DNA of 64,000 nt from Maricaulis salignorans. Lineage in GTDB: Bacteria > Pseudomonadota > Alphaproteobacteria > Caulobacterales > Aquidulcibacteraceae. Made by a program: the position numbers and the translations under genes. A model generated the notes under the pieces. That model did not search any database. It was not told the origin of the DNA and worked only from the letters and a program-made list of their open reading frames with translations. Location of the stretch: the NCBI GenBank assembly GCA_945891505.1, contig CAMDDL010000013.1:1-64000 (forward strand), read 5' to 3'. Positions 5,048-15,344 of the stretch are shown here, piece after piece (within the stretch, counting starts at the first letter, position 1; every line of letters begins with the position of its first letter).

Positions 5048-5511
5048 GTCACAGGGCAGAAAGCGCAGCGCTTGAAGCCCCTCTGCCACATGGTGTCTTC
5101 CGTAGGGGCGTTGGCGACAGCTTCGTGCATCCAACGGGTCTGGGCAACGAAGCCCACTGGCCGTGCAGAAAACCGCTGCAGGTTCACGGTCCCCAATCCG
5201 CTAGTCCCCTCGATCAACGCCTCACCACGCCGCGCCGTGCGAATATCTCCGTAACCTGCAATCATCACCACCTGCCAAAACAGGCCTTGAATCATAATCA
5301 GCCCGCAAAGGGAATCACTTTCGTGCACGCGGCAGCCCTCTAAGGGGGCGAGGGGATTTCCACTCGCAACTCATTTGCTCAACTGACTTGATAACACCGC
5401 TTCGTGAGCTTTTCCTAACCCGCAATTTAATAGACCCGTCCGCCCAAACCCTGTAACCACATGGGAGGCCCTGCCGTAGGCCAGAATAGGCAGGCAAAAA
5501 GGGACAAACCT
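5048..5511. other. 464-bp gap with an unrecognised minus-strand open frame
   Basis: No known gene is recognised between the HxlR and esterase genes. A minus-strand frame of about 116 codons (5328 down to 4978) stays open with coding-like codon choice; it includes NLQRFSARPVGFVAQTRW and runs 70 bases into the 3' end of the HxlR gene. An overlapping plus-strand frame is also open, so this may be chance. It could be a remnant of a gene, a small gene or a conserved non-coding element. I do not assign a function. Confidence 0.25.
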
Positions 5512-6825
5512 ATGAGATTGCGTCGAAAACTTGTTTTGGGGGCAGTTCTGATCGTCACTGGCTTGGCGCTCAGCGCTGGGGGATGCGCTCTGCAACGGCT
5601 TCCCAATGTCCCCCGGGAAATTACGGGCCCAGCGGCTTCGCCCCCGGTTTTGGCGGCCTTCCGCTCTGACCCTGCGGTCCAAACCCAGCAGCACTGGCAA
5701 GACCGCCGTGCGCCCTTGTTGAAGGCACGCTTTCAGAGCGAAATCTATGGCGCGATGCCTGCACCGGCAGGATATGAGATCGTCAGCCGGGAGGTGCTTC
5801 AAACCCCCGAGAAAGGCGCAATCGGCACCATTGAGCGGATCACAATTGCCCTAAAGACCGCTCAAACTGGACCTTGGCCCGGCGGACACCCTGTTGTCGA
5901 TCTGATTTTGATGACCCCCAAAGGCAAGGGCCCGTTCCCTGTCATCGCGGGCGGCACTTTTTGCGGTAATGACGTCCTTTTGCCAAAGCAGCAGGGTATG
6001 CGCACAACCACCATGCCTCTGCCGCAAGAATGTGGCGGAGACGCGCCCGAATTCCTGATCAAAGCCATCTTCGGTTTGCACGCTAATGCGCCACCTTGGG
6101 AAACCTTGGCTGAAAAGGGCTATGCGGTGGCTTCTTGGCATCCCGGTGACGTGGTCCCTGATGTGCCCAGAGTCGCTGAACCCTATCTGCAAGCTTTGAC
6201 GCCAGTTGGCACGCCGCCAGCCCAGCGGACGGGAGCAATTGCAGCTTGGGCTTGGACCTCATTGCGCATGGTCGATGTTTTGGGTGCAGACCCCCGTCTA
6301 GACCCCGCGCGGGTGATGTTGTGGGGCCATTCGCGGCACGGGAAGGCCGCTTTACTGGCCGCAGCCTTTGACCCAAGGCCCGCTGGTGTCTGGGCGCTTC
6401 AATCGGGCACTGCGGGGGCGGCTTTGGGCCGCGACGATGTGGGTGAGCCTGTGGCCGATATTACCGCGTCTTTTCCCCATTGGTTTGCGCCATCTTACCG
6501 TGCCTATGCAGGCAAGCCTGCTGACCTCGATATCGATCAGCACCAGTTGATTGCGTTGATTGCGCCGCGCCCGATTTTGATCGGAACGGGGCGGCGGGAC
6601 CAATGGGGTGACCCGCATGGCAGCTTCCGCGCGTTGAAAGGTGCGGACCCTGTCTACCAGCTGTTTGGCGCGCCAGCCTTTACCCAGACCAAGTTGCGAG
6701 AACCCGACGGAAAAGGCGTGTTAGCGTTTTACATGCGGCCCGGCCTACATGGCATCCACACGGAGGATTGGGATGAGGCGCTTTCCTTTTTTGATCGTAC
6801 CGTCCCAAAAGCCACAACAAAGTAG
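5512..6825 (+). CDS. CE15-like alpha/beta-hydrolase (glucuronoyl esterase relative), probable lipoprotein
   Basis: About 437 residues. The N-terminus is a basic start plus hydrophobic stretch ending in AGGC, which may be a lipobox although the -3 residue is not the usual Leu. The body is an alpha/beta hydrolase with the nucleophile in GHSRHGK (about residue 273), matching the G-x-S-R-x-G-K motif of carbohydrate esterase family 15, and a catalytic His in LHGIHTEDW (about 412). Family members cleave ester links between glucuronic acid in xylan and lignin alcohols. I chose the ATG at 5512 with AAGGGA upstream. It stands alone. A generic cell-envelope esterase is the main alternative. Confidence 0.7.
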   Translation: MRLRRKLVLGAVLIVTGLALSAGGCALQRLPNVPREITGPAASPPVLAAFRSDPAVQTQQHWQDRRAPLLKARFQSEIYGAMPAPAGYEIVSREVLQTPEKGAIGTIERITIALKTAQTGPWPGGHPVVDLILMTPKGKGPFPVIAGGTFCGNDVLLPKQQGMRTTTMPLPQECGGDAPEFLIKAIFGLHANAPPWETLAEKGYAVASWHPGDVVPDVPRVAEPYLQALTPVGTPPAQRTGAIAAWAWTSLRMVDVLGADPRLDPARVMLWGHSRHGKAALLAAAFDPRPAGVWALQSGTAGAALGRDDVGEPVADITASFPHWFAPSYRAYAGKPADLDIDQHQLIALIAPRPILIGTGRRDQWGDPHGSFRALKGADPVYQLFGAPAFTQTKLREPDGKGVLAFYMRPGLHGIHTEDWDEALSFFDRTVPKATTK

Positions 6826-6907: not shown

Positions 6908-8101
6908 ATGGCCGCAGGAATTCGTGACAAGGTCGCCGTCATTGGCATGGGCTGTTCCAAGTTTGGGGAACGTTGGGATTGCGGCCCCGAAGAATTGATG
7001 GTTGAGGCCTATTCAGAGGCAATGGCCGATGCCGGGATCGAGCCGACGCACTTGGATGCGGCTTGGTTTTCAACCCACATTGACGAAATCGGCACCGGCA
7101 AGGGCGGCACCCCGTTATCGATCGCGCTGCGCCTGCCCAATATTGCGGTAACGCGGGTTGAGAATTTTTGTGCTTCAGGCTCTGAGGCGTTTCGAGGCGC
7201 GGTCTATGCTGTGGCCGCGGGTGCTGCCGACATCGCGATTGCGGTCGGCGTTGAGAAACTGAAAGATACCGGCTATGGCGGCCTGCCGACTGGCAATATG
7301 GGGACCTATATTCCCCAGACCGCCCCAAACGGTTCAGCCCCCGGTAACTTCGCGCAATTAGCCAGCGCGTATCGCGCCAAGCACAATGTATCGCGCGAAG
7401 ACCTCAAGCGCGCGATCGCCCATGTCTCGGTAAAAAGCCATGCCAATGGCTCAAAAAATCCCAAAGCGCATTTGCGCAATGTGGTGACCGAAGAACAAGT
7501 CATGGCTGCCCCAATGATTGCAGAGCCTTTGGGCCTGTTTGATTGTTGTGGTGTGTCTGATGGTGCGGCGGCGGCGATCGTCACCACCCCTGAAATCGCG
7601 CGTGCATTGGGCAAGAAGGATTTGGTCTATGTGAAGGCCTTGCAACTGTCGGTCTCCAACGGGATGGAAAGCCAGCATAATTCTTGGGATGGCTCTTACT
7701 TCCACACGGCTCGTATCGCTGCGAAGAAGGCTTATCTTGAGGCGGGCATTGACCGCCCGCGTGACCAGATTTCGATGATTGAGGTCCATGATTGCTTCTC
7801 GGTGACCGAGCTTGTGACCATGGAAGACCTGTTCATCTCGCCCGAAGGCCAAGGCTGGAAAGATGTCATGAATGGCTTTTATGATGGCGATGGCCAAGTG
7901 CCGTGCCAGATTGATGGTGGCTTGAAATGCTTTGGCCATCCCATTGGTGCTTCGGGTCTGCGGATGCTGTATGAAATGTATCTGCAATTGCAGGGTCGCG
8001 CAGGTGATCGCCAATTGTCTAACCCCAGTATAGGGCTGACGCACAATCTCGGCGGGGCTCCTGCCAGCAACGTCTGCTCGGTAGCAATTATCGGCCTTTG
8101 A
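6908..8101 (+). CDS. Thiolase-family protein (acetyl-CoA acetyltransferase / SCP2-thiolase type)
   Basis: A 397-residue thiolase-fold protein. The nucleophile Cys sits in VENFCASGSEAFRGA near residue 88, and the C-terminal active-site segment reads GGLKCFGHPIGASGLRM. The segments VGVEKLKDTGYG and HDCFSVTELVTMEDL are typical of SCP2-like thiolases, which cleave 3-oxoacyl-CoA or take part in degrading branched or cyclic acyl chains. AGGGAGG lies before the ATG. No CoA ligase or hydratase is adjacent, so its pathway is open; acyl-CoA genes elsewhere in the window may be partners. Confidence 0.85.
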   Translation: MAAGIRDKVAVIGMGCSKFGERWDCGPEELMVEAYSEAMADAGIEPTHLDAAWFSTHIDEIGTGKGGTPLSIALRLPNIAVTRVENFCASGSEAFRGAVYAVAAGAADIAIAVGVEKLKDTGYGGLPTGNMGTYIPQTAPNGSAPGNFAQLASAYRAKHNVSREDLKRAIAHVSVKSHANGSKNPKAHLRNVVTEEQVMAAPMIAEPLGLFDCCGVSDGAAAAIVTTPEIARALGKKDLVYVKALQLSVSNGMESQHNSWDGSYFHTARIAAKKAYLEAGIDRPRDQISMIEVHDCFSVTELVTMEDLFISPEGQGWKDVMNGFYDGDGQVPCQIDGGLKCFGHPIGASGLRMLYEMYLQLQGRAGDRQLSNPSIGLTHNLGGAPASNVCSVAIIGL

Positions 8102-9021: not shown

Positions 9022-9055
9022 AGCCCGCCGAACGTAAGGTTCCGGCGGGTTTTTT
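9022..9055 (+). terminator. Intrinsic terminator after the GST gene
   Basis: CCCGCCGAAC and GTTCCGGCGGG pair into a GC-rich stem with one bulged base, followed by six T residues. It ends the GST transcript and separates it from the convergent DUF3089 operon. Confidence 0.9.
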
Positions 9056-9069
9056 GTGAAGCGCGGGTC

Positions 9070-10170
9070 TTACCTCAGTGCGTTGACGCGGGCTTGGACA
9101 TCGGTGCTGAGCGCGGCGTAAAACAGATTATAGCCTGTGATCTTATAAAAAGTGCCCAATTCGAACCGCGCCCGTGACAAAGCTGCAGGGCGGTTTACTT
9201 CGACCCACAGCAAGTCATTGCGGCATATGGCGCCCGTCTCTCCGGGCAATAAGGCAGGCTCTGTACCGCGTTCGAGGCCACTGGCAGCAGCTGAGCCTCG
9301 ATTGGTGCTGGCGGGCGCATTGTTCAGGGGCGCTGCCCCCGTCAGCGGGTTCACACAAGCAAACCGCCCCCCGCCAATGGCACGATAGCCCATATCCGCG
9401 GTCCAGATCGTTGAACGCTCTTTCAAGATGCGCGCGCCACGTTGGTCCCCACCATCGAGGCTCGTGTAACTGACAAAGCAGCGGGTTTGTTTGGCACTCT
9501 GGCAAGGCTTGGGAAAGCCTGGCACCGCGCCTGGTCCTTCATATAGGGTCGTGGGTACTGGCTGATCAATCAGATAGGTTGCGGCCAACATCGGCCCCAA
9601 ATCGCCCTTTTCTTGCAGGAGTCGGAGCACATGCAAGCCACCTTGCCCAAGTCCTACTAGAACAAAGGGTCGCTTGGGGTTACGCGCTTGCTGAAAGGTC
9701 ACAAAAGCGCGCGCGACATCTTCATAGGCGAGGTTGAGCGCTTCGCGGCTATCGTCCCGCTGGGACAACAGGGCGAACAGCACGGCTTGACGATAACGAG
9801 GTACCCAAAGAGGGCCGGCTGCGGCAAAGGGTTCAGCGTGATTGGGAAGGGCGACCGTTTCCAGCCTCGTGCGGGAAACATTGTCCGCGATATCCATGTT
9901 CCAACCCGTATTGCCGCTCCAAGCGGTTGAGGGATGCACGATGAAGATGTCGGCTTTGCCAAGGCTGGCATTGGCCCCTTGCGGGCGGAAAGCCCAAGCG
10001 GCTGCGTCACTATAGTCGGGGACGGGCGGTGGTTCGTCGACTTGAAATGGGACGGCGGGCTGGATCAGTTCACGGAACAAATTGTCGCGCATGAAATAGG
10101 CCGTCAGCCCAACCAAAAGATTGAGGCTAATAATCCCGCCTATGATCCAACGTTGCCACTTCTGGCTCAT
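9070..10170 (-). CDS. DUF3089-family protein lacking the nucleophile serine, membrane-anchored
   Basis: 366 residues. One hydrophobic segment at residues 9-27 should anchor it in the inner membrane with the rest outside. The body matches DUF3089 (lysophospholipase-like alpha/beta hydrolases): DIFIVHPSTAW, YRQAVLFALL, and the nucleophile-elbow region PFVLVGLGQGGLHVLRLL. In relatives the elbow is G-H-S-Q-G; here it reads G-L-G-Q-G, so the Ser is Gly. The reading frame is otherwise intact. The protein may therefore be a non-catalytic binder, or catalysis may be different. The gene overlaps the DUF6285 stop by 4 bases and is last in a three-gene operon. Confidence 0.7.
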   Translation of the reverse strand: MSQKWQRWIIGGIISLNLLVGLTAYFMRDNLFRELIQPAVPFQVDEPPPVPDYSDAAAWAFRPQGANASLGKADIFIVHPSTAWSGNTGWNMDIADNVSRTRLETVALPNHAEPFAAAGPLWVPRYRQAVLFALLSQRDDSREALNLAYEDVARAFVTFQQARNPKRPFVLVGLGQGGLHVLRLLQEKGDLGPMLAATYLIDQPVPTTLYEGPGAVPGFPKPCQSAKQTRCFVSYTSLDGGDQRGARILKERSTIWTADMGYRAIGGGRFACVNPLTGAAPLNNAPASTNRGSAAASGLERGTEPALLPGETGAICRNDLLWVEVNRPAALSRARFELGTFYKITGYNLFYAALSTDVQARVNALR

Positions 10171-10529
10171 TGGTTCAGGCCGCTATAGCTGGGCTGATCA
10201 ATTGCCAATTGCGCTGAGGTGATCTCACGCAGAGCTGCCAAAAGAGCTGGATTGTCACACGCTAGGGCACCCGATCGGATTTGCGCGCAAACTTGGCCGT
10301 TTAAGGCTTCTAAAGTGCTCGCCTCATCGTTCAAAAGGGCAGCAAACAGGGCCCGCGCGCGGGTGTCCGCTATGGGCCTCTGCGCCATCTCGCGCTCGAC
10401 CAAAGCCAAAGCATTGGCAGCGACGCGTGCGTGGAAGGCGGCTTGGCCGCTGAGTTGGGGGGCTGCAACTTGGTTCAAGAAGCCGATGACCGAGCCCAGT
10501 AATTCTTCAGAGGAGGGGGCTTTATGCAT
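10167..10529 (-). CDS. DUF6285-like small protein
   Basis: 120 residues, mostly helical and rich in Ala, with no signal peptide. The pattern EELLGSVIGFLN near the start and FHARVAANALALVERE in the middle is what I know from DUF6285 proteins, which are regularly encoded beside ACAD10-like phosphotransferases in acyl-CoA-degrading bacteria. The role is unknown; it may be a partner or regulator of the phosphotransferase. It overlaps the phosphotransferase gene by 8 bases and the DUF3089 gene by 4, so expression should be coupled. Confidence 0.65.
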   Translation of the reverse strand: MHKAPSSEELLGSVIGFLNQVAAPQLSGQAAFHARVAANALALVEREMAQRPIADTRARALFAALLNDEASTLEALNGQVCAQIRSGALACDNPALLAALREITSAQLAIDQPSYSGLNQ

Positions 10530-11520
10530 GTGGGCGACCTTCGATCAGATTGAGTAGGTCTATTTCGGCTTCAGATGCCCGCCGGCCAATCATCGCCCGC
10601 TCAATCGATGGGTCGGCTTTGGTGGCAAACGCCTGATACATAATCAAGCACATGATACCCCATTTAAAACTGCCCAAGGCCTGAAACCAGTCAAGGTCCT
10701 TTGGCTCGAACGACTGGCCACCGGAGGCCTGATAGCCTGCCAAAAGCTCTTCAAGGGGGCCAAACCCCCCAACCTTCTTGTCACGCACCCCAAAGCGCCA
10801 AGAGTTCACACAGATCCAGCCCAGGTCCTCGCGCGGGTCCCCTTGATGGGCCAGCTCCCAGTCCAAAACGGCGGCAAGACCGCCTTCGTTGACCATCAAA
10901 TTGCCATTGCGAAAATCGCCATGCACCAAGGTCGTAGGCAAGGGGGCCGGCGCATGCTGACGCAGCCAAGATAGCGCGAGCTCAAATACCGGACGATCCA
11001 TGTCAAAGCCGCGATAAATGGCTTCATAGCGGTCCAATTGATCCAAGCCATGGCTTATCGGCAGGTCTGACGGCAAATTGTCTGGCGCGACTGCATGGAT
11101 TTTCGCCAAAGCCTCGCCGCATTGAAAAGCCAGAAGTTGGCGAGCGAGGCTGTATTCTTCATCGCGCAGGATTTTTCGGGCAATTGTTTGCCCTGCCACA
11201 TGGGCCATGATGAAGGCATCGCCTAGGTCATCTTCTGGGCCGCAGACATGAATGATATCGGGGACAGGTGTACCAGTTTGTGCGGCGGCGGCAATGATCT
11301 GCGCCTCTTTCACCAGCCCAATGGCTTCACCCTTTGCGGCACTTTGAAACGGGGCCCGACGGAGAATGAGGTGGCGCGGTGTTTCGTTTGGCACTTGGAG
11401 GCTAAAGCCCCAAGTCTCTTGGCTTGCCCCGCCAGACAGCCGCGTCATCTCGCGCACCTCTGCGTTTGGACCAAAGCGGGTCTGCATCAAGCGGGTGAGG
11501 GGGGCGGCCAAAGCAGTCAT
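10522..11520 (-). CDS. APH-type phosphotransferase (ACAD10 kinase-like)
   Basis: A 332-residue aminoglycoside-phosphotransferase-fold kinase. The catalytic loop LVHGDFRNGNLMV and the metal-binding segment VLDWELAHQGDP are clear and complete. This subgroup resembles the kinase domain of human ACAD10/11, which is thought to phosphorylate 4-hydroxyacyl groups before their breakdown, rather than antibiotic-resistance kinases. It is the first gene of an operon with DUF6285 and a DUF3089 protein. The pairing with DUF6285 supports a role in hydroxyacyl-CoA metabolism. Confidence 0.82.
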   Translation of the reverse strand: MTALAAPLTRLMQTRFGPNAEVREMTRLSGGASQETWGFSLQVPNETPRHLILRRAPFQSAAKGEAIGLVKEAQIIAAAAQTGTPVPDIIHVCGPEDDLGDAFIMAHVAGQTIARKILRDEEYSLARQLLAFQCGEALAKIHAVAPDNLPSDLPISHGLDQLDRYEAIYRGFDMDRPVFELALSWLRQHAPAPLPTTLVHGDFRNGNLMVNEGGLAAVLDWELAHQGDPREDLGWICVNSWRFGVRDKKVGGFGPLEELLAGYQASGGQSFEPKDLDWFQALGSFKWGIMCLIMYQAFATKADPSIERAMIGRRASEAEIDLLNLIEGRPHA

Positions 11521-11574: not shown

Positions 11575-12606
11575 TTAAGCTTTAAAGACAAACACATCTT
11601 CAGGAAGCAGGCTTAGGTCAACATGTTGCCCCCTCTCGGGCGCGGTTTTCGCCTCAACCAGAGCGGTAATGAATGCGCCATCGCCCGTAACACCTTGCAG
11701 CTTAAGGGTCAGGAAGCGGCCGACACCCCGACGATCTATGACCGTGAATTGCCCGTTGTCTGAGGCCGTAACGAGGGTTGCTTCAGGTCGGGAGCAAACA
11801 ACCACGGAGCCGTCAAACGGGCTATCAAAGGTGCCAAGGCGTGTCTCTACACGGCCATTCTGTGCGTGACCATCAAGGCTCCAAACGGCACCAAGTGCGC
11901 GGGCTGCTTCCAAGGACTTGGGTGCACGATAGACTTCACTTGGCAAACCACTCTGCAGAATGCGGCCATGCTCAATGATCGCGACTTGATCGGCTACTGC
12001 GAGTGCTTCTTCGGTGTCATGGCTGACGATCAGGGCCGCAACCCCGGCCTCTGCTAAGGTGGCCAACATGCTCGATTGCAAGTCAGCGCGCAGATGCGGG
12101 TCAAGGCCGCTGAAGGGCTCATCCATCAAAATGGCGCGCGGGTTAGGGGCAAGGGCGCGCGCGAGGGCAACGCGTTGTTGCTCTCCACCAGAGAGCTCAT
12201 GCGGGAATGCGTCGCCGCGGTCACCAAGGCCCACGCGATCCAACCAAGATGCCGCTAAGGCGCGCCGCTCTGGCTTACCCAAATGGCCAAGGCCAAAGGC
12301 GACATTGCCTAAAGCGGTAAGATGGGGAAACAGGGCATAGTCCTGAAACACCATGCCCAAGGGCCGTTTTTCAGGTGGGACGGTGGTGCGCACGTCGCTG
12401 ACCAGTCTGCCATCGGCATAGACTTCACCCGCGTCCAAGCTTTCAAGCCCGGCCAAGACGCGCAGAAGCGTGCTTTTGCCAGAGCCTGATTGCCCCAGTA
12501 GAGCCAGCACTTTGCCTGCCTCTAGGCTTAGGCTCACATCATCCAGTGCTTTGACCGCGCCAAAAGTGCGGCTGAGATTGCGTGCTTCAAGGGCAAATGC
12601 GCTCAT
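11575..12606 (-). CDS. fbpC: Ferric-iron ABC transporter ATP-binding protein
   Basis: A 343-residue ABC ATPase on the cytoplasmic face. Walker A (GQSGSGKST), signature (LSGGEQQRVALARAL) and Walker B (AILMDEPFSGLD) are intact, and the C-terminal third looks like a TOBE-type regulatory domain as in FbpC/AfuC. It powers the uptake system made with the next two genes. The start overlaps the permease stop by 4 bases (ATGA). A longer frame from 12693 would run into the permease gene and is unlikely. The specific metal is inferred from the binding protein. Confidence 0.85.
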   Translation of the reverse strand: MSAFALEARNLSRTFGAVKALDDVSLSLEAGKVLALLGQSGSGKSTLLRVLAGLESLDAGEVYADGRLVSDVRTTVPPEKRPLGMVFQDYALFPHLTALGNVAFGLGHLGKPERRALAASWLDRVGLGDRGDAFPHELSGGEQQRVALARALAPNPRAILMDEPFSGLDPHLRADLQSSMLATLAEAGVAALIVSHDTEEALAVADQVAIIEHGRILQSGLPSEVYRAPKSLEAARALGAVWSLDGHAQNGRVETRLGTFDSPFDGSVVVCSRPEATLVTASDNGQFTVIDRRGVGRFLTLKLQGVTGDGAFITALVEAKTAPERGQHVDLSLLPEDVFVFKA

Positions 12607-14192
12607 GATTGCCCCGCCCGTGATTTCGAAAGGCCGTGTGAAAACAACAGGGTTGGGATCAAAGCTACCAACACAATCGCAAGTGCAGGCCAAGCGGCCG
12701 CACCCAGACGCTCATCGGCAGCATAGGCATGGGCGCGGACTGCTAAGGTATCGAGCCCAAAGGGGCGCAAAATGGTTGTCGCCGGCAATTCCTTGGCAAT
12801 CTCTACTGCAACAATTAGCGCCGCAGCAAAGGCTGACGGGGCAGCTAAAGGCGCTTCTAACGTCAAAAAGCGCTTGATCCGGCTGGCACCTAACGTCTGT
12901 GCCGACTCCCGCATCGAACGGGTCGATTTTTCAAGGCCCGCACTTAAAGGCTCTAGCCCGGCGGCGGTGAAGCGCGCGGCATAAGCATAGCAGAGCGCCA
13001 CAATGGCCAGTGGTCCGCTCAAAGCAGCAACGACATGTGACCCACTCAACGCGAGTGCTGCCAATATGCCCAATGCCGTCACGGCACCGGGGGTCGCGTA
13101 GCCAGCAAGGCTGACCGCGCGGACAAAGGCGCTAGCTTGTGCGCTTCGCTGGCCAATAAAGGCGCTGAGTCCTGCCAGAACTAAAGTGGCGCTAGCCCCC
13201 AGCGCGCACAGCAATGCGGTAGCAGCCAGTGGCTTGCTCAAGGCCCGCTCGGGCAATCCGCTCGCGATCGCGAGGTTTGCGAGATGCAGCACAGGAATGA
13301 CCAAGCCCAGCGTCAAAATGACAAAGCAAAAGCCTGTGACAAGAACTTGATGCACGCCAGAGACAGGTGCCCGTTGAGGCGTGCGCCAGCGGGTCGAGCC
13401 CCCCGACACCAAGCCTGCCCGAGATTTGCGCTCGAGCCAGACGAGAAACAACACGCCAACCAGCAGCAAACAAGCAATGCGGGCTGCTGCAGCCAAATCA
13501 CCCATGGAAAACCACGCGCGAAACACGCCAATGGTCAGCGTGGCAACGCCCAGATGATCGGCTGCCCCATAATCGGCAGCAATCTCTAAGCCTGTCAGGG
13601 CCGCCCCTGCCGCAATCGCAGGGCGCGCCAGCGGCAAAGCCACGGTCACGAAGCGCTTCCAAGCACCAGCGCCTAACAAGCGTGCGGCTTCCAAAGCGCA
13701 CACCGATTGGGCTTCAAAAGCGCCACGAGCGGCTAGATAGACATACGGGTAAAGCGTCGTGACATAGACTAAAGTTGCGATCCAAAACCCGCGCGCGCCG
13801 GTCAAATCACCCCAAGCATAGGCGGCAACATAGGCAGGCATGGCCAAGGGCAAAGCTAACGCCCAACTCAGCACTGTGCGCCCCCAGAATTGATAGGCCG
13901 TGACGAACCAAGCGGCAATCACGCCTAAGATTGTTGCCCCCAAAGTCGCCAAGACCAACAGAGCGAGCGAGGTCAGCGCCATTTCGCCTAGAAGTACGCG
14001 CGCGATATGGTCGAAACTTGCGCTTGGACGCAGGGCGGCCAGCACCGTGAACAGGACTGGTAGTCCTGGCACGGCGATTAAGAGTGCATAGAGCGACCAA
14101 TCTTTTAGCGGCAAACCAAGCAGCTTGGCAGTGCCAAGCCTTTCCCAATCCCGCGCGGGGCTGGGCCTAGCTGCCGGATCAAGTGTGGTCAC
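12603..14192 (-). CDS. fbpB: Ferric-iron ABC transporter permease (fused double domain)
   Basis: 529 residues with about twelve membrane segments, made of two permease halves fused in one chain as in FbpB/SfuB. Each half has an EAA-type loop: ARLLGAGAWKRFVTVALPLA and, later, AQTLGASRIKRFLTLEAPLA. It forms the inner-membrane channel between the periplasmic binding protein and the ATPase. The start is GTG, overlapping the stop of the binding-protein gene (GTGA), which implies translational coupling. Confidence 0.87.
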   Translation of the reverse strand: MTTLDPAARPSPARDWERLGTAKLLGLPLKDWSLYALLIAVPGLPVLFTVLAALRPSASFDHIARVLLGEMALTSLALLVLATLGATILGVIAAWFVTAYQFWGRTVLSWALALPLAMPAYVAAYAWGDLTGARGFWIATLVYVTTLYPYVYLAARGAFEAQSVCALEAARLLGAGAWKRFVTVALPLARPAIAAGAALTGLEIAADYGAADHLGVATLTIGVFRAWFSMGDLAAAARIACLLLVGVLFLVWLERKSRAGLVSGGSTRWRTPQRAPVSGVHQVLVTGFCFVILTLGLVIPVLHLANLAIASGLPERALSKPLAATALLCALGASATLVLAGLSAFIGQRSAQASAFVRAVSLAGYATPGAVTALGILAALALSGSHVVAALSGPLAIVALCYAYAARFTAAGLEPLSAGLEKSTRSMRESAQTLGASRIKRFLTLEAPLAAPSAFAAALIVAVEIAKELPATTILRPFGLDTLAVRAHAYAADERLGAAAWPALAIVLVALIPTLLFSHGLSKSRAGQS

Positions 14193-15262
14193 TTCCAGCC
14201 CGCGCGATCAAAGACCTTTTGGGCTTCTGGCTGATTGGTACCCAAAGCGGCCATGGGGGTTTGGGCTTCTTTAAAGCCTGCGAGCGCTTTAAGTTCGCTA
14301 TTGTCATCCATTGCGCTGGCAAGGATGGGGAATTCATCATTGGCCTTGGAAAAGATTTTTTGCGCTTCAGGGCTCGCCAGGAACTCTAAAAACGCAATCG
14401 CATTGGCTTTGTTGGGAGCGTGGGCAGCGAGTGCCCCGCCTGAAATATTCACATGGGTGCCAGCACCGGCCTGATCCGGGAAGGACAAGGCAATCTTGGC
14501 AGCTATGGCTTTTTCAGTGGCGTCCGTCGAGCGCTGCAAACGCACTGCATAATAATGGTTCACGATGGCAACCGCACATTTGCCTTCGGCAATGGCTTTG
14601 AGCTGATCTGTGTCTGAGCCTTCAGGTGAGCGAGCAAAATTCGCCACAACGCCCTTGGCCCAGGCTTCTGCCTTGGGTACGCCCCAGTTTGCGATGAAGG
14701 ACGACATTAAAGACAGATTATAAACATTGCTGGATGGGCGAACACAGATTGTGCCTTTCAGCGCAGGCTCAGCCAATTGCGCATACGTGGCAACTTGATC
14801 TGCTTTTGTCCGCACAGGATCATAGGCGATGACGCGGGCGCGCTTAGCAAAGCCAAACCAATCCTTCTTCGGACCTTGCAAGGTGGCCGGAACAGTCGCG
14901 TCCAGCTTTGTTGATTGAACCGATTGAAACAGGCCAGCGGTTTCTGCGCGCCAGAAATTGCCAGCATCAACCAAGAGGATCACATCAGCAGGGCTCTGTG
15001 TGCCTTCAGCCTTGAGGCGCTCCAACAGAAGGTCGCCCTTCATTTCAATGCGATTGATCGCGATACCGGTGTTTTTCTCAAACAAGTCATAGAGTTGTTC
15101 ATCCGCGTCATAATGGCGGGCTGAATAGATATTGACTTCGCCTTTGGATCCAGCCGCGGGCTCTGACGCGCCACACCCCGCAAGGGTCAGCAAAATTGTG
15201 GATGCCACAGCAACCGAAACAAACAGGCGGGTACGGGAGTTTTTGAGAATGGTTCGCATCAT
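14189..15262 (-). CDS. fbpA: Iron-binding periplasmic lipoprotein of ABC importer
   Basis: About 357 residues. The signal peptide ends in a lipobox (LTLAGC), so the mature protein should be lipid-anchored. Then come VNIYSARHYDADEQLYDLF and, later, AIVNHYYAVRL, whose paired tyrosines are the iron ligands in the FbpA/FutA family. It binds ferric iron in the periplasm and hands it to the permease. It is the first gene of the operon. A short dyad (GCAGG-CAT-CCTGC, 15283-15295) lies just upstream and could be a control site. I do not see a clear Fur box. The ATG at 15262 is used although its ribosome site is weak. Confidence 0.86.
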   Translation of the reverse strand: MMRTILKNSRTRLFVSVAVASTILLTLAGCGASEPAAGSKGEVNIYSARHYDADEQLYDLFEKNTGIAINRIEMKGDLLLERLKAEGTQSPADVILLVDAGNFWRAETAGLFQSVQSTKLDATVPATLQGPKKDWFGFAKRARVIAYDPVRTKADQVATYAQLAEPALKGTICVRPSSNVYNLSLMSSFIANWGVPKAEAWAKGVVANFARSPEGSDTDQLKAIAEGKCAVAIVNHYYAVRLQRSTDATEKAIAAKIALSFPDQAGAGTHVNISGGALAAHAPNKANAIAFLEFLASPEAQKIFSKANDEFPILASAMDDNSELKALAGFKEAQTPMAALGTNQPEAQKVFDRAGWK

Positions 15263-15344
15263 CAACTGGTATTGTCACAGCCGCAGGCATCCTGCAAGCC
15301 AAACTCACACTCAAAACCTGTTTGCATGCGTGGCACAAAGTCCC

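Follow-up and report, generated by a model that had tools for sequence, protein, structure and literature searches.

What remains of a hydrolase when its nucleophile is gone, and why would its gene overlap two others? In Maricaulis salignorans, a gene for a protein of the DUF3089 family lies last in a trio of overlapping genes, and glycine stands where relatives have the nucleophilic serine. The gene could be decaying, could encode an enzyme with another mechanism, or could encode a protein that has been kept without catalysis, alone or as a partner of the products of the other two genes. A preliminary description had taken the protein for a conserved non-catalytic or re-purposed subunit of an undescribed three-part module. 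We analyzed the whole stretch of 64,000 nucleotides (contig CAMDDL010000013.1, positions 1 to 64,000, the window) and compared it with related loci in other genomes. Loci, genomes, contigs, families and genera are given codes beginning with L, G, C, f and g, respectively; g1 (Aquidulcibacter and relatives) is the code for the genus of the window.

The gene trio in the window

The three genes form an overlapping unit that is conserved in genus g1 (Table 1). The DUF3089 gene is an uninterrupted open frame, as the preliminary description had it, and its Pfam match (165.6 bits against a cut-off of 23.4) covers positions 1-205 of the 207 in the profile. A profile search of the whole genome found no second DUF3089 match. 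The 4-base overlap with the DUF6285 gene (10167-10170) and the 8-base overlap between the DUF6285 and kinase genes (10522-10529) are as first described. Based on the starts called here, the former recurs in 7/7 and the latter in 6/7 other g1 genomes with the trio, the exception being L072, in which an earlier start gives 23 bases. Thus, the three genes in this genus still overlap as one unit. Eight named relatives of this group were found: records labelled Aquidulcibacter, Hyphomonadaceae or Alphaproteobacteria, with 91-95% identity, plus two genomes of Candidatus Phycosocius, with 80% and 73%.

Table 1. Features of the gene trio and its surroundings in the window.
Feature	Position	Strand	Basis
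DUF3089 protein of 366 aa, putative pseudo-esterase, final gene of the trio	9070..10170	minus	Pfam PF11288, E 1.4e-48
Former nucleophile elbow, residues 173-177, G-L-G-Q-G, with G175 replacing Ser	9640..9654	minus	sequence and alignment
K-I-T-G, residues 343-346, replacing the His-x-x-Asp of Ser-type relatives	9133..9144	minus	alignment
N-terminal hydrophobic anchor, approximately residues 8-27, predicted N-in/C-out	10090..10149	minus	hydropathy and charge count
DUF6285 protein, 120 aa, putative LvaB-like small kinase partner, from its position in other genomes	10167..10529	minus	Pfam PF19802, E 7.2e-29; neighbourhoods
APH-fold kinase, 332 aa, ACAD10/11- and LvaA-like	10522..11520	minus	Pfam PF01636, E 1.9e-35; solved-chain matches; sequence
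Thiolase-family gene, PRK06157 type	6908..8101	plus	NCBIfam NF004810; also neighbours the block in other families and orders
Terminator-like hairpin, 3' of the trio, before the convergent GST gene	9024..9049	minus	pattern match

An ABC transporter (binding protein, permease and ATPase genes, 11575-15265) is encoded on the same strand and ends approximately 54 bases before the kinase gene, and the trio may therefore form the end of a longer transcript. The hairpin downstream of the trio comes from a scan that found 7 such sites in comparison to a mean of 9.0 after shuffling, that is, no excess. Elsewhere in the window (5461-6825) is a gene for a 454-aa protein that matches GCE_fung (PF22244, E 6.5e-25), a family of fungal glucuronyl esterases, and has a visible G-H-S-R-H-G motif.

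Catalytic residues, descent and conservation of the DUF3089 protein

The loss of catalytic residues extends beyond the nucleophile and beyond this genome. We examined 83 DUF3089-like proteins from Caulobacterales: 78 full-length proteins (that of the window plus 37 and 40 from two genome searches, a subset of all matches there) and five short genes from family f2 (L128, L130, L131, L135 and L136) that were left out of the counts below. In the alignment, 58 of the 78 lack Ser at the nucleophile position (Gly in 25, Glu in 22, Asn in 9 and Asp in 2). None of these 58 has the catalytic His, and 52 have Lys or Arg in its place. Ser is present in 19, all of which also have the His and an Asp three residues on. 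The remaining protein, L107 (G116, f2 g35), has GHDQG, with Asp for Ser and with His and Asp in place; it falls in the far Ser clade and is in neither group. GLGQG or GIGQG is found in all nine g1 genomes examined, including that of the window, indicating that the change is not a sequencing slip. In other genera, Glu or Asn is often found there.

The catalytic acid is probably missing from the window protein as well, a wider loss than the preliminary description had recognized. Alanine mutants are reported to have proven the triad Ser193/Asp360/His375 of MGS0012, an esterase of the DUF3089 family (PMC5341072), and an earlier proposal for Est10 (His341, Asp344) placed the acid after the His (PMC4431682). 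The window protein has K343 where the His is expected and Gly at the Est10-type acid position; there is no Asp or Glu 8-18 residues before K343, in columns that align loosely and where some members of the Ser-less group do have an acid. A different conserved Ser in the elbow would have counted against the preliminary description, and there is none in the window protein. In one relative, L052, and in L176 from another order, the elbow reads GSGQG, in which a Ser precedes the nucleophile position by one residue; we take this Ser as not conserved.

The 58 Ser-less proteins form one clade. Support was 99 (SH-aLRT) in a tree of 78 rows from which the columns of the elbow and the His had been removed. 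We then added 27 rows from other orders, leaving 86 after 19 near-duplicate or long rows were dropped, and the Caulobacterales clade again had support of 99, with the same columns omitted. Both are quick trees with SH-aLRT support and without bootstraps. Both Ser and His are present in 24 of these 27 additional rows. The other three are L200, with Glu at the nucleophile position and the His kept, and two rows from family f80, L176 and L177, that attach beside the Ser-less clade with support of 82 in the 86-row tree. L176 has lost the His. L177 (locus L242, G280) has GHGQG and a long branch, having lost the Ser and kept the His and Asp; it is a possible half-way stage in which Ser was lost first. 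The same genome also encodes a Ser-type copy, L202. On the alignment and trees, Ser and His, and probably the acid too, were lost at or before the base of Caulobacterales. Members of the clade occur in all five families sampled (f1-f5). A DUF3089 match of either kind was found in 147 of 200 Caulobacterales genomes, and a DUF6285 match in 76. Many f1 genomes have no DUF3089 match at all, indicating that the gene is dispensable in that family. Among the matches listed in the searches made, we found no paper that, by its title or the start of its abstract, concerned a triad-less DUF3089 clade, and those searches found none that named DUF6285.

Could the clade have acquired a new catalytic mechanism? 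Asp serves as the nucleophile in dehalogenases and epoxide hydrolases, and the Glu found at the nucleophile position in 22 of the 58 proteins (or the rarer Asp), or the Lys or Arg found at the His position in 52, might be used in a new mechanism. We consider this very unlikely: Gly, which is incapable of acting as a nucleophile, occupies the position in 25 of the 58, including the window protein, the residue there has changed at least 10 times over the 78-row tree (changes of Ser included), and the position of the general base has no His.

The gene is not a decaying one. Four cysteines (C223, C231, C272 and C316) are present in 58/58 Ser-less and 19/19 Ser-type proteins. P114, F350 and R361 are also present in all 58, and F350 and R361 are found in only 4 and 5, respectively, of the 19 Ser forms. 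The median dN/dS among eight g1 genomes was 0.030 (22 of 28 pairs with dS < 2), in comparison to 0.082 for the kinase gene (26 of 28 pairs) and 0.096 for DUF6285 (23 of the 23 pairs that yielded one). The GST gene gave 0.033 (25 of 27) and the thiolase gene 0.013 (28 of 28); dS was near saturation in many pairs (1.0-1.6), and these ratios are therefore rough. For the closest g1 pair, the value for DUF3089 was 0.066 (0.025/0.381). These values point to purifying selection in genus g1, and a gene that has lost its triad and is under such selection is what is expected of a pseudoenzyme. Based on this conservation, we infer that the product has been kept as a non-catalytic protein. In this respect the preliminary description, which had proposed a conserved protein that is non-catalytic or re-purposed, is well supported: the clade has 58 members without Ser or His, all retaining the four cysteines and a membrane anchor.

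The anchor, also part of the preliminary description, suggests where the protein acts. All 58 Ser-less proteins pass a hydropathy threshold for a membrane anchor ahead of the domain. There is more net positive charge before the anchor than after it in 51, equal charge in 5 and less in 2, leaving 7 without the expected bias. Ten of the 19 Ser forms pass the same threshold and the rest fall below it; the Ser forms examined from f13, f107 and f112 have an anchor of the same kind as the Ser-less clade. The anchor with its charge bias, together with the conserved cysteines, suggests that the DUF3089 domain is outside the cytoplasm (N-in/C-out) and faces the periplasm. An AlphaFold2 model made with the window protein and eight close relatives as the alignment was poor (mean pLDDT of 40.5) and lends no support to the intact fold of the preliminary description. 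Searches by sequence among solved structures gave no convincing match to DUF3089 or to DUF6285 (best E of 0.31 and 0.33).

Linkage to the kinase pair and the wider neighbourhood

The linkage between the DUF3089 gene and the kinase pair is real but loose. We examined 78 other Caulobacterales loci with DUF6285. The APH-type kinase gene is present in 77, the remaining locus (L055) being on a 6-kb contig. A DUF3089 homologue is within 700 bases in 47 and absent within that range in 31. In eight of the 47 it is full-length and on the same strand, in 10, all from f3, it is full-length and convergent, and in 29, all from f2, the same strand carries a decayed homologue, here termed X3. The linkage is therefore not confined to this genome; such confinement would have counted against the preliminary description.

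The X3 loci lie among L117-L138 and L251-L266 (e.g., L130:4073-4984). We built an HMM from 18 of them and it matched the 11 others. In profile-profile comparison (hhalign), X3 matched the Ser-less clade with a probability of 99.4% and the Ser forms with 98.5%, versus 0.1-0.5% for six unrelated neighbour alignments, ruling out that the third gene in f2 is unrelated. Pfam detected DUF3089 in L130 (E 1e-10) and nothing in L119. A hydrophobic N-terminus is retained in all 18 X3 proteins studied, and no elbow is left in the six that were inspected in an alignment.

The two parts of the neighbourhood also occur separately. Assuming that both searches covered the same 200 genomes, 12 f4 and 6 f5 genomes have the Ser-less protein and no DUF6285 match. 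The same is true of G005 in genus g1 (taken as Candidatus Phycosocius spiralis), and four f1 genomes (g13) have DUF3089 without a DUF6285 match; these five cases hold without that assumption. One f4 genome, G176, does have DUF6285. In G005, the position that the kinase pair has in other g1 genomes is taken by a gene for a 1115-aa protein with GH18, polysaccharide deacetylase and GT2 domains (L061:10498-13845). We conclude that the kinase pair and the Ser-less protein are separable.

We asked whether the Ser-less protein might tether the kinase to the membrane or serve as its allosteric subunit, forming a three-part complex as the preliminary description had it. The overlapping genes in eight g1 genomes (the window included), the 29 f2 loci with all three genes on one strand, and a single block in two f13 loci described below are consistent with such a complex. 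Nonetheless, it is distinctly unlikely: the predicted topology and the four invariant cysteines would put the domain outside, away from ATP; the protein occurs without DUF6285 in the 18 f4 and f5 genomes and in G005; the gene is convergent to the pair in the 10 f3 loci; and the pair lacks a nearby DUF3089 homologue in 31 of 78 loci. Of the undescribed three-part module, the recurrent linkage stands, the word subunit is doubtful for a domain predicted to be outside the cytoplasm, and the kinase pair resembles one that has been described (see below). We conclude that the three genes are a recurrent but separable neighbourhood.

The neighbourhood of these genes in many genomes includes recG. A recG-type helicase or DUF502 gene is within 3.5 kb in 41 of 57 loci of the Ser-less clade besides the window and in 0 of 19 Ser-type loci. 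In f2, the order is mfd-sdhE / recG - DUF502 - APH - DUF6285 - DUF3089 homologue - hldE. In another order, two f13 loci (L243 and L246) have recG - DUF502 - one more gene (for DUF7064 in L246) - APH - DUF6285 - enoyl-CoA hydratase - DUF3089, and there the DUF3089 protein has SHSQG with His and Asp present. This apparently active form in the same block, together with the f4 and f5 proteins that have no DUF6285, rules out loss of Ser as a mark of the kinase-pair operon, a correspondence that the preliminary description had suggested looking for. L248 (f112) has recG - DUF502 - enoyl-CoA hydratase - DUF3089, also in the Ser form. Altogether, of ten DUF3089 loci from other orders (L241-L250), four are at recG, two have the kinase pair and three have thiolase. 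In L132 and L246, the kinase genes adjoin genes for DUF7064/DUF7065 proteins, another companion of such kinases.

The thiolase gene, DUF3089, DUF6285 and the kinase gene look like an old block, as the thiolase gene recurs beside these genes in other families and orders. It directly precedes the Ser-less DUF3089 gene in six f3 loci (g23) and one g31 locus, and is near the kinase pair in L141, L144 and L269. Thiolase neighbours outside genus g1 are 85-89% identical to that of the window, and those near the L243 and L246 blocks are 85-87% identical.

Adjacency could be inherited from such a cluster, with no meaning for function. A DUF3089 homologue adjoins the pair in 39 of 51 loci with recG within 6 kb, compared to 8 of 27 without it, and 7 of those 8 are in g1, as expected if the adjacent genes are relics of an ancestral cluster beside recG. 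Against this, the trio and thiolase gene are together in genus g1 away from recG (on a separate contig, C11, in this genome), and the genes overlap. Inheritance of position is compatible with the other readings, and we regard it as a serious possibility, although short of probable.

Neighbours differ by family (the kinase pair; an epimerase and hldE; a nucleotidyltransferase; a carboxyl transferase), and therefore the context does not single out acyl-CoA breakdown. In a survey, ruvX and gatCAB are reported beside alphaproteobacterial DUF3089 genes (PMC11878206). The protein might instead serve the inner-core sugars of LPS or surface biogenesis, with the acyl-CoA genes being only old neighbours. 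Among 21 f3 loci of the Ser-less clade, an epimerase gene is within 3.5 kb on the same strand in 20 and an hldE-type gene (PfkB plus cytidylyltransferase) in 12; hldE is next door in 3 of 12 f4 loci; and in the six f5 loci, a nucleotidyltransferase gene overlaps or abuts in four and a SIS-CBS gene is near in three. This role appears rather unlikely to us, as hldE and recG also neighbour the whole block in f2, so that the adjacency may be inherited, and neither was found near the DUF3089 gene in genus g1.

Proposed role and closest known systems

Based on the residues, topology and conservation described above, we believe that the protein is probably a conserved, non-catalytic pseudo-esterase, whose cleft would most likely hold an anionic or acyl ligand, or a second protein of the envelope, and leave it uncleaved. 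A DUF3089 protein related to the alpha/beta-hydrolases, anchored in the membrane and facing the periplasm, would have lost Ser, His and probably the acid, and its non-catalytic descendant would then have been retained, with Lys or Arg at the former His position in the old substrate cleft helping to hold the ligand. The suggestion of ligand binding comes from these basic residues in the alignment; the clefts of two modelled DUF3089 proteins are described as positively charged (PMC11878206). The ancestral enzyme may have freed hydroxy acids from esters or lactones on the outside of the membrane and so supplied an LvaAB-like kinase route inside, as judged from the Ser-type sisters of another order, which lie among genes for acyl-CoA breakdown (kinase, DUF6285, enoyl-CoA hydratase and thiolase).

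A more specific proposal, which we offer as speculation and consider rather unlikely to be right, is that this family traps or senses anionic lipids, such as those of the hydroxy-acid or lactone kind, on the periplasmic side of the inner membrane. The family would descend from an active exo-esterase encoded in an LvaAB-like kinase locus, still be co-made with the kinase in Aquidulcibacter, and have decayed further to elbow-less forms in part of f2; the dead enzyme would be the receptor of the pathway that its ancestor fed.

The pseudo-esterase reading affects how these genes are annotated and what they can tell. The label esterase, given from a DUF3089 domain match, misleads for 58 of the 78 Caulobacterales copies examined, which lack serine-esterase residues. 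The apparent stages from enzyme to non-enzyme can be seen side by side: active forms at the same locus in another order, L177, the loss of Ser and His, and the elbow-less f2 forms. A binding role, if true, would be the first function for a protein that is found in all five families sampled.

The kinase pair most closely resembles LvaA-LvaB of Pseudomonas putida. The kinase has visible HGDFRNGN and DWE motifs, and its nearest solved chains are 3dxp and then ACAD11 (8v3v), in agreement with the ACAD10-like kinase named in the preliminary description. LvaA-LvaB, the kinase domains of ACAD10/11 and the lva gene set have been described (PMC6692424, PMC11342911, PMC12440821); the 12-kDa LvaB is reported to be pulled down with LvaA, and lvaA and lvaB mutants not to grow on levulinate (PMC6692424). 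The window also has an APH-type kinase gene followed by a small gene, with small proteins of 12-14 kDa in the two systems. In L231-L233 (another class), L234, L239 and L240, the kinase and DUF6285 genes are beside an ACAD gene whose product has Asp where window-type ACADs have Glu, with an acyl-CoA synthetase gene near in L231-L233 and L239. L232 (2241-7312) has SDR - ACAD with Asp - APH - DUF6285 - acyl-CoA synthetase, which is the lva gene set. The position of DUF6285 in lva-like operons suggests that it is the LvaB family. The two genes are one ORF in L140 and L156 and, by ORF length, also in L139 and L234.

The window differs from the lva-like loci in several ways. Its kinase is 32-34% identical to those of L231-L234, and no ACAD gene, of the LvaC type or any other, and no SDR or synthetase gene is among the neighbouring genes identified. 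Other contigs of this genome encode an ACAD with Asp (L167) and the Glu-type ACAD that is the usual partner (L161). In L235-L237, and likewise in L145, the ACAD near a pair of the window type (kinases 48-52% identical) is a different one and has the ordinary Glu; the kinase is thus a candidate 4-hydroxyacyl-CoA kinase of the LvaA type. A homologue of the L145-type ACAD (71% identical to that of L145) is on contig C52 of this genome. We rejected the idea that the L145 ACAD is LvaC-like; it has the ordinary Glu, and there was no ACAD11 chain among 51 matches at E <= 1e-20.

For the DUF3089 protein itself, the closest known relatives are the family XV esterases (Est10, MGS0012; PF11288). The likeness includes a nearly full Pfam domain, an N-terminal hydrophobic segment, a G-x-x-Q-G elbow and the four cysteines. 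Unlike those enzymes, the window protein has neither the Ser of G-x-S-x-G (G175) nor the His (K343) of the proven triad, and probably lacks the acid too.

Another comparison is to the NDRG family. To our knowledge, NDRG proteins are eukaryotic, and we know of no relation between them and DUF3089 beyond the fold. They are described as pseudoenzymes with the alpha/beta-hydrolase fold (PMC7022630) and, like the window protein, are conserved members of a hydrolase family in which the triad residues have been replaced; the window protein differs in being bacterial, membrane-anchored and predicted to face the periplasm.
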